DNA of 64,000 nt from Candidatus Saccharimonadota bacterium (GTDB lineage: Bacteria; Patescibacteriota; Saccharimonadia; Saccharimonadales; Saccharimonadaceae), in contig JAFRLS010000003.1 in the NCBI GenBank assembly GCA_017431105.1, positions 62,001 to 126,000 on the forward strand. Direction: 5' to 3'. Below, one piece after another: positions 35,031 through 41,313 of this stretch (positions within the stretch are counted from its first letter, which is position 1; the number at the start of each line of letters is the position of its first letter). The notes below the pieces were generated by a model. It was not told where the DNA came from and did not search any database. It saw only the letters and a list, made by a program, of their open reading frames with translations. Both the position numbers and the translations under genes were made by a program.

Positions 35031-35039
35031 ATTATACCA
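35031..35039 (-). promoter_or_regulatory. Extended -10 promoter of uvrB (leaderless type)
   Basis: TGGTATAAT on the minus strand, 7 nt before the ATG; it overlaps the stop codon of the giant surface-protein gene upstream. Confidence 0.7.
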
Positions 35040-38000
35040 CGGTAGGTGGCGCCTGCTGTTGACCGTTATCATCATTCGTAAGACGCTTAGCGAGAGCAAC
35101 GGAAAATGCTGCGCCAGAAGCAACTACGGCAGCTGCCGCCGCGACAGCCAACTCGGTATTATATTGTGATATGGATTCCGTATTTTCATCAATCTTTTCG
35201 TCCAGTGTAGATTTAAATACGCCAAGAGGCAGTACGTAGCCATCATTGGGCTCAGTATCATCACTACTATCATTGTTTTGACTTAGGGTAGACGTTTCTT
35301 GCGCTGGTGCACTACTCTGCAATGATCTGCCTGGAGTCGTCACGGTCATCGCCGTTCTAAAGGCCTGGATCAAACTGGCGTCAGCATTAGGATTGCTCAT
35401 ATACCAATCGTAAATATCTTGCGTAGTCTTCACGAAGCTCATCATAAAGACAAACTTCAAATTATTAGAACTGGATTTTTCCTTGTAATATCTGGTCCTA
35501 TCATATTGGCCAGAAAGATATGTCAGCTCATATTCTTCATATCTCGCTTCGTCTGGCACGCCAAGTAAACCTTCAAGGAGATATGCTAGTGTTCCAGTAC
35601 GATCGGCTCCGACACGACAGTGGATGTAAACATTCTTGGCGGTATTAGTATTCGTAATATCTTGCATAACACTGGTCACCGCATTCCAGGCTTTCATATA
35701 ATTACTGTTGGCGTTGTTTTCGTCGCCAGAGTTGTAATCAAAGTTATAATGAACCACTTGGCTTAAATGATAATCGCCCAAATGTGTGTCGCTTGAATAT
35801 TCATCACCTACGTTGTATTCAGTGGTAATACCGAGATTGACGAGTTCTGTTGCGGCGGCACTACCTAATTTCTCGCCACGGAATAATCTACCATAGGCAA
35901 GCGTGCCGGTCACGGTTTGATTGTTGCCATCAGTATAACTGACCGGTAAACCGCCAAGATCACGCACATTGCGAATCGTGCCAGTATCTACCCAACGCGT
36001 GCCCGTGCTCGAACCATTAGAAGTCGCTGTAACGTAACCATATACTGTACTATCACTGGTTTTCTCCCAGTAGTAAGTTTGCCCAGGAATCATATTATGA
36101 ATCACGCCATCATCTGCTTTCGTGTAATTAACTATTGCCCCTTGGGCATTGTCTAAGCGCACAGTAAGCGAAGCGTTAATCTTTGTGTCATACGCATCCG
36201 GCTTAGAACAATCCACCGAACCGGTAGTCCAATTTAGGCCTGTTTTAACGTCAGAAAGTGGAGATGCCATACAATTATTATCTTCAAAGTTATCTTCCAT
36301 ATCGCTCCAGAATTGTGCCTCAGAGAGCTCAGTAGTATCACCCCAAGTCGAGTTGTTAATCGGGCTCGCCTCATTAAAGGTAGTGATATTGATTGGGCTC
36401 TGTACCCAACTACTAATTAATGTATTATAATCACGAGTCGCATCATTAGAGACATCAAAGGTCACCGGCGTATTAGACGAAGTATAACTATAATGTGCAA
36501 CGTATGTTTTGTTGCCACTTGGAACAGTTAAGGTCGATACTTGTGTAGCCGGCGAAGTTGATTCGTCAAACCAACCAATAAAGGTATGGTTTACGGTCGG
36601 AGGAGTTGGTACTGGCAAGTTACCGACCGGGTCGTTTATTGTAATTGTTTTACTACTATCACTTGAATTTGTGAAGCTACCACCATTTGGGTCAAATTCA
36701 ATCACATACTCAGTTGGGTTCCCTAACCTAATATACATATCGGTAAAGGTAGCATAGATTGGACGTTGTGTACCGGTACCAGCCGAGTTGAGCGTTGCGC
36801 CAAACCAAGTATTAGTGTCGAATCTCGTGGTGTTTTGACTAATATCCTGAAGCAAGGTATAAGCCGCGCCGTTCCATGAATAATATATTTTCTGATCGAT
36901 TCTGGCGATTCGCACTTGTTTCAAGGTGCTTGCAGTCACATTTGGAGTACTAACCGCGGTGCTGTCCATGCTAAATCTCTCAGTCAACTGAACTGTATCG
37001 GTGCCATTTTTCCTCATGGTAAATCCAGGCCAGCCAGATAAGTTTTCTGCTTTAGAGGTAACAAACGTAGCTTGGGACGGAGATGCAGAATCATTATATG
37101 ACACAACATTAAATCCTATTTCAAAATCTTTCTGATAATTATCGGCTGAGAATAATTTCACGGCAGTATCAATATAATGCTTTGTTAAATCAAGTGAATT
37201 ACCAGTGACAGCATCTTCAAGGCAGTAAGCTCCAGTTATATGAGAAGTGCCGTTAAACGTACAGGCATTCACTTCCGCCCAAACGATTGGGAAGCTGGTA
37301 GTATCTTCAATCCATCTTGCGTAGTAAGTCACATCAGCGCTTACGGTGGTTGCCGGTGTTACTTCTTCATAGAAAGTACCATCGTCTTTATACCAACCAA
37401 AGAAGCGATAATTAGCACGCGTTGTGGTTGGTAAGCTACCTACCGGGTCGCCATCATCTACTTGGGACGAAGCCGATGGAGTAGGCGTAGAGCCGCCATT
37501 TGCATTAAATGTTACGGTCCACTTTGGCGTTGGCGCTGGCGTTACTTCAACTGAAATTGTCTTTGTGAGATTCGACTGTGTACCAGTCAAGGTAATAGTT
37601 GCAGTACCAGCACTTACGCCAGTTATTACGCCTGTATTTACGTCGACGGTAGCTACTGAAGTATCGCCAGAACTAAAGGTGTATGGCTCAAGATTCGCGG
37701 AATTGTTGACAGTAACTGCTAGTTGGTCACCCACCGTAAGTATCAATTCGGAATCAGATATTATAGCTTGAGTAATATCAAGTTTCCATTCGGCATAAAC
37801 AGTCATAGCTCCAAACACTTCCGTTGCGCTAGTTACGGTATTGTTATTTGATGTATCATACCACCTCTGGAAGACGTGGTTAGTATAGGTCGGGTTATTT
37901 TGTGGCATTCCAGCACCGATTGTATTGCCAGCTTGCACGTCGACAAAGGAAGTACTATCACCATTTTGTGGGTCGAAGGTAACTCTAAATGTCGACGATG

Positions 38001-41000: not shown

Positions 41001-41313
41001 CTATAGCTGAGCTGATAGACGTGATCTCACTACCATTAGTGCTTGTTATGCTTCTGGAATTTTGAGAAGCTATACTCAAATTATAACCAGTAAAGTTGTC
41101 GGTGTTTATGTTTATTTCTACGTCATCAGTCTTCTCGAATGATGCCGCAGACATATAGATTGTTGGAGTTTCGTTTTCGAGGCTAATTGTTAAGGTGCTT
41201 TGTTTTGCTATCGCCTCTACCGGTGGAGCATTAAAGACCAAAAAAAAGCCAATAAGGCCAGTACACACCATAGCAAACAGCCATCTGCTGTGTCCTCTTT
41301 GACTCGCAGTCAT
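35032..41313 (-). CDS. Giant secreted multidomain surface protein with a C-terminal tyrosine-phosphatase domain
   Basis: 2093 residues. The ATG at 41313 is chosen because GTGGAGTTAAAA lies before it; a longer frame adds 15 residues. Order, approximate residues: signal peptide 1-36; unknown beta domain 37-190; InlB-type repeat 195-295; LamG-like domain 300-505; InlB repeat 510-577 (ITYNANGG...GWYTG); Big2-like 580-657; InlB 660-732; cysteine-containing domain with [10 protein letters not shown] 735-935; InlB 950-1021; Big2-like; InlB; Big2-like; InlB, to 1335; second LamG-like 1335-1535; InlB 1535-1610; lead-in domain to 1775; phosphatase 1779-1990 with NVRDLGG and [10 protein letters not shown] (Cys1899, Arg1905); Asn/Asp-rich stalk; hydrophobic helix near 2055-2075. 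Two LamG-like domains share FPxVWxxxxxC and xFGAxxx segments. No [T/S]PYTG motif. Probably host- or partner-facing. Confidence 0.85.

Follow-up and report, generated by a model that had tools for sequence, protein, structure and literature searches.

A giant, predicted membrane-anchored surface protein of Saccharibacteria with a PF13350-type Cys-phosphatase domain and an altered P-loop

The locus considered here raises the question of whether a phosphatase domain embedded in an adhesin-like protein of about 2,100 residues, encoded by a very small saccharibacterium from the gut, is a working enzyme, and on which side of the membrane and on what kind of substrate it would act. Encoded on the minus strand, the gene takes up 9.9% of the window, i.e., the 64,000-nucleotide stretch of DNA analyzed here, and thus slightly less than a tenth, against over a tenth in the earlier note. 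The surface protein of ~2,090 residues recognized there is a real open reading frame, with 2093 codons from the start given in that note (ATG at 41313) and 2108 in the longest frame, where this ATG stands at codon 16; the shorter version has the cleaner signal peptide. Residue numbers below follow the 2108-aa frame (subtracting 15 yields the earlier numbering, e.g., the previously noted Cys1899 is Cys1914 here). The features of the gene are as follows:

35032..41358, minus strand: whole open reading frame, 2108 aa as the longest frame, 2093 aa if the start is the ATG at 41313
41218..41313, minus strand: signal peptide, hydrophobic core at residues 26-44 (hydropathy; position conserved in relatives)
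40729..41217, minus strand: N-terminal surface module, also present in a second large surface protein encoded by this genome
40423..40728, minus strand: first List_Bact/InlB-type repeat, divergent (by eye from sequence)
39805..40416, minus strand: LamG-like (concanavalin-type) domain 1, residues 315-518 (AlphaFold model, Foldseek, VIA-align)
37306..39792, minus strand: List_Bact (InlB B-repeat) and Big_2 domains, with a Cys-containing domain inside (Pfam; PDB sequence matches)
38491..39114, minus strand: unnamed Cys-containing domain, residues 749-956, ~205 aa (conserved in relatives)
36718..37296, minus strand: LamG-like domain 2, residues 1355-1547 (sequence resemblance to domain 1)
36487..36708, minus strand: last List_Bact/InlB-type repeat, residues 1551-1624 (by eye from sequence)
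36013..36222, minus strand: small beta domain before the phosphatase, residues 1713-1782 (AlphaFold model; conserved in aligned relatives)
35347..36000, minus strand: PF13350 Cys-phosphatase domain, residues 1787-2004 (Pfam, PtpB fold match, conservation)
35950..35970, minus strand: NVRDLGG motif, residues 1797-1803 (alignment of 39 sequences)
35593..35622, minus strand: P-loop [10 protein letters not shown], residues 1913-1922 (HCxxGxDRxG in 39/39)
35155..35346, minus strand: S/N-rich linker with a PLGV motif
35035..35154, minus strand: C-terminal membrane helix, residues 2070-2088, and a tail starting KR (hydropathy)

Pfam recovers six List_Bact/Flg_new (InlB B-repeat) stretches (6.8e-47; the PF09479/TIGR02543 repeats exceed the cut-off) and three Big_2 domains (2.2e-16), which alternate along the protein and whose main block (37306..39792) is placed between the two LamG-like domains; a PDB sequence search likewise returned InlB and Big_2 matches. 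The earlier description of an InlB-type and Big2-like array with LamG-like domains is thus borne out, except that it overlooked the Cys-containing domain at residues 749-956, for which we found no Pfam match and which is duplicated in one relative (L034, alignment columns about 1940-2150). B-repeat and Big_2 modules are shared with Listeria InlB and other adhesins of this type, but, in contrast to InlB, no leucine-rich repeats were found in the giant protein and it carries an enzyme domain. While Pfam LamG/concanavalin families have no match in it at E up to 1, an AlphaFold model of residues 296-975 (mean pLDDT 82.6) has a first LamG-like domain that Foldseek matches to the LG domains of neurexin, laminin and agrin (E about 1e-5) and VIA-align to LG and lectin domains (Z about 11-12), with sialidase lectin and LG domains matching the model over residues 314-547. 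Of the two LamG-like domains claimed earlier, domain 1 is supported by its modeled fold, and domain 2 is assigned from its sequence resemblance to domain 1. Because carbohydrate- and protein-binding proteins of many kinds contain the LamG-type sandwich, the modeled domain 1 suggests a binding role but does not name the ligand. Over residues 51-314 the giant protein is 43% identical to a 1039-aa open reading frame on contig 6 of the same genome, with which it has the N-terminal module in common; this module matched no Pfam family, and a WxL-type domain, suspected by eye, found no Pfam support and was rejected. The same genome encodes two large surface proteins without a PF13350 domain (L116, contig 6, 2137-5256; L117, contig 41, 2098-4047); one of them has its N-terminal module in common with the giant protein, and the other shares an InlB-type repeat with it.

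The only long hydrophobic segments of the giant protein by hydropathy are residues 26-44 and 2070-2088, i.e., the signal peptide and C-terminal helix previously described, and we accordingly predict that it is secreted (likely with cleavage just before or within IAKQ) and membrane-anchored. As this helix adjoins the phosphatase, the domain would be membrane-proximal and sit at the stalk's base, not at its tip: the N-terminal, repeat and LamG-like domains would project outward, with the phosphatase outside the cell near the membrane. The arrangement proposed earlier, a phosphatase displayed on a stalk, would therefore be reversed for the window copy. Four relatives (L041, L062, L063 and L066) stop right after the phosphatase with no C-terminal anchor, and two of these (L062 and L063) feature a pair of N-terminal hydrophobic helices, an arrangement that would place their phosphatase distal from the membrane. 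Hence, judging from hydropathy, the anchor may lie at either end of the protein. Another relative (L067, 4172-11767, plus strand, 2531 aa) has DUF285 repeats after the phosphatase, which is thus not always C-terminal.

The assignment of the enzymatic domain made in the earlier note proved correct. A Pfam search with the whole protein matched PF13350 (Y_phosphatase3) at E 2.7e-14; the score of 54.2 bits (59.5 bits when the region was searched by itself) is well over the cut-off of 22.2, and this gene is the only one in its genome with such a match. An AlphaFold model of the small beta domain and the phosphatase, built from 39 sequences, has a pLDDT mostly of 85-98 over its folded part (mostly 87-95 in the beta domain) and a single loose loop. 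In fold comparisons, Mycobacterium tuberculosis PtpB (1ywf; Z 17.3, 2.7 Å over 179 residues) and the Clostridioides difficile PTP (8dhi; Z 16.8) rank ahead of other PTP-fold proteins, and the same two come first in a PDB sequence profile search, with the C. difficile enzyme as the best match. The domain was previously called apparently intact, and the catalytic residues agree with this: the P-loop is kept as HCxxGxDRxG in all 39 aligned sequences, with the Cys, Asp and Arg invariant (Cys1914, Asp1919 and Arg1920 in the giant protein). The P-loop Asp is required for catalysis in PtpB, Lmo1800 and LM1 (PMC3091653). In the upstream NVRDLGG motif, the N, R and both G residues are likewise present in 39/39, and the D in 37, with E in the other two.

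The P-loop nevertheless departs from that of the characterized members. The atypical lipid phosphatases (ALPs) are defined by the signature HCXXGKDR[TA]G, whose Lys at position 5 aids phosphoinositide binding, while a Lys at position 2 (after the Cys) broadens the activity of PtpB to polyphosphorylated lipids (PMC3091653, PMC6409689); a Lys-to-Ala change at position 5 sharply lowered phosphoinositide activity in Lmo1800 and LM1 (PMC3091653). None of the 39 giant proteins has this position-5 Lys: A takes its place in 31, S in 7 and V in 1. At position 2, 29 of them carry Arg. From its sequence, the giant protein is thus a PF13350 member that lies outside the ALP signature. It shares the PF13350-type domain, the PTP fold and the Cys/Asp/Arg P-loop with MptpB/PtpB and the ALPs Lmo1800, Lmo1935 and LM1, but the ALPs are phosphatase-only proteins, whereas its domain is C-terminal in a putatively anchored repeat protein of 2100 aa. 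The C. difficile PTP (8dhi, 8dhj), despite being the best PDB sequence match and a near-top fold match, is similarly a stand-alone 249-aa chain with HCTAGKDRTG. Six short PF13350 proteins (L002-L007, open frames of 206-382 aa) from other genera of the same Saccharibacteria family have K or R at position 5, where the giant proteins carry A, S or V. With the Lys of the characterized relatives missing, both rate and substrate may differ; the substrate is not deducible from PtpB, and the earlier expectation of a phosphoinositide substrate is to be dropped. We infer that the shifted charge, with Lys lost from position 5 and Arg at position 2, would alter specificity. PF13350 proteins that are secreted and lack the P-loop Lys also occur in gut Firmicutes and Bacteroidota, and this feature may therefore not be unique to Saccharibacteria.

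No part of the protein is as conserved as the phosphatase: in 50-residue bins compared between the window protein and seven near relatives, it has 69-82% identity, against 34-68% for most of the rest and still lower values for the signal peptide and for the linker and anchor at the C-terminus. Pairwise dN/dS for the beta domain and phosphatase, calculated with our own Nei-Gojobori script, ranges from 0.02 to 0.11 in the 15 closest pairs and has a median of 0.12 over 60 pairs with dS of 0.1-1.5, the values for many other pairs being rough only on account of saturated dS. These ratios point to strong purifying selection on the domain. Together with the conservation and the intact catalytic residues, they argue that it is probably an active extracellular Cys-phosphatase, and a relic or pseudogene was rejected on the low dN/dS, the bin conservation and the invariant P-loop. 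Internal stops flagged in some relatives were, in the three cases inspected, natural stops just past the domain or anchor, and with a tighter model no match has a stop inside the domain.

More than 30 other genomes also have long frames that contain this domain (11 of these frames were inspected over their full length), and an assembly artefact or chimera was therefore rejected. Within the genus of the window, 38 of 174 genomes have a match, one of them only weak and short (hence about 37), as do 26 of 110 when only good genomes are counted; some genomes have two or three copies. Across 393 genomes sampled from 152 genera of the class, the long form is limited to this genus and one other (g11), and in a phylum-wide sample of 380 genomes searched with the Pfam model, only weak matches in shorter frames occur outside the family. 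Relatives were surveyed within Patescibacteria, and a scan of genome contigs returned Saccharibacteria only; those relatives that bear a name are Candidatus Saccharibacteria, of which two originate from yak reticulum and sheep jejunum. As most genomes of the genus are devoid of the gene, the group can do without it, and it is best described as an accessory trait that is strongly conserved where present. A phage or plasmid origin was rejected for want of a match; viral contigs gave no relative by profile, and searches with two P-loop DNA patterns likewise came up empty. Separate frames of 295-441 aa in seven genomes of the genus (G169:C7, G251:C18, G361:C13, G347:C12, G372:C1, G219:C3 and G308:C1) match weakly in the P-loop region and are perhaps other PTPs.

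We consider it fairly probable that the giant protein is an anchored adhesin-like protein whose working Cys-phosphatase acts on an extracellular phosphomonoester. It would be secreted and then held at its C-terminus by the membrane helix. The InlB-type/Big_2 repeats and LamG-like modules that form its stalk would bind a glycan or protein of a neighboring surface, and the membrane-proximal PF13350 domain would remove phosphate in a Cys-dependent manner, with a phosphoprotein or phosphosugar where the two surfaces meet as its probable substrate. A more specific form of this proposal, in which the protein is a lineage-specific contact enzyme of Saccharibacteria that attaches to a partner bacterium or to the gut surface and dephosphorylates the molecules displayed there, with a Lys-less P-loop of changed specificity and with surface phosphatase activity as part of epibiont attachment, is tentative and, taken as a whole, rather doubtful. 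If active, the giant protein would be an enzyme displayed on the surface of Saccharibacteria, where few molecular functions are known, and the variant P-loop, kept across two genera, offers a clear test of substrate choice in this phosphatase family. The main rival is that the domain frees phosphate from plant or microbial esters, such as inositol phosphate or phytate, in the gut for uptake. Plant phytate may occur in the yak and sheep gut sites of the two relatives, and the position-2 Arg adds positive charge where Lys gave PtpB its polyphosphorylated-lipid activity (PMC3091653). Further, Pho16B, a PF13350 enzyme from a soil metagenome with a signal peptide, has phytase activity and shares the Y_phosphatase3 domain and predicted secretion with the giant protein, though it is a 38 kDa protein that keeps the Lys and is described with only a signal peptide and PTP domain (PMC6409689). 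However, the adhesin-like scaffold of 2100 residues would be a costly means of scavenging, the position-5 Lys is absent, and no transporter is found among the ten neighbors scanned; the own genome has no PhoU match either, which neither establishes nor excludes such a role. On balance, we regard scavenging as unlikely.

The adhesin-like remainder of the protein would also accord with a catalytically dead domain retained only as a phosphate-binding adhesive module, but the invariance of Cys, Asp and Arg, the presence of NxRDLGG in nearly all sequences and the greater conservation of the phosphatase than of any other part make this very improbable. Least of all do we expect a lipid or phosphoinositide phosphatase directed at eukaryotic host cells, the role suggested for PtpB and LipA (Lmo1800): despite the shared family and fold and the mammalian gut origin of two named relatives, the defining position-5 Lys is absent throughout, its change to Ala sharply lowered phosphoinositide hydrolysis by Lmo1800 and LM1 (PMC3091653), and lipids of the cytosol would be out of reach for a domain tethered near the bacterial membrane.

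The genomic surroundings do not add a functional link, as the neighbors are housekeeping genes and there is no constant partner. In the window, the gene sits between lysS and uvrB, with uvrB downstream, whereas the downstream gene in the six relatives compared codes for RmuC in three and for a WxL-interacting-like surface protein in the other three; a conserved partner gene was thus rejected. Searches of the literature on Saccharibacteria tyrosine phosphatases and InlB/List_Bact repeats found no paper on the giant protein. A 333-aa relative of the WxL-interacting-like gene found downstream in L053, L056 and L066 is encoded elsewhere in the window (55221-56222, minus strand), and its genome has five such genes, to whose reading as WxLIP Pfam lends weak support. 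Finally, a phosphoketolase (XFP) at 30899-33003 on the minus strand of the window is split over two overlapping frames of 311 and 390 aa and seems to lack the end of its N-terminal domain; a frameshift, gene decay or an error in sequencing could each account for this.
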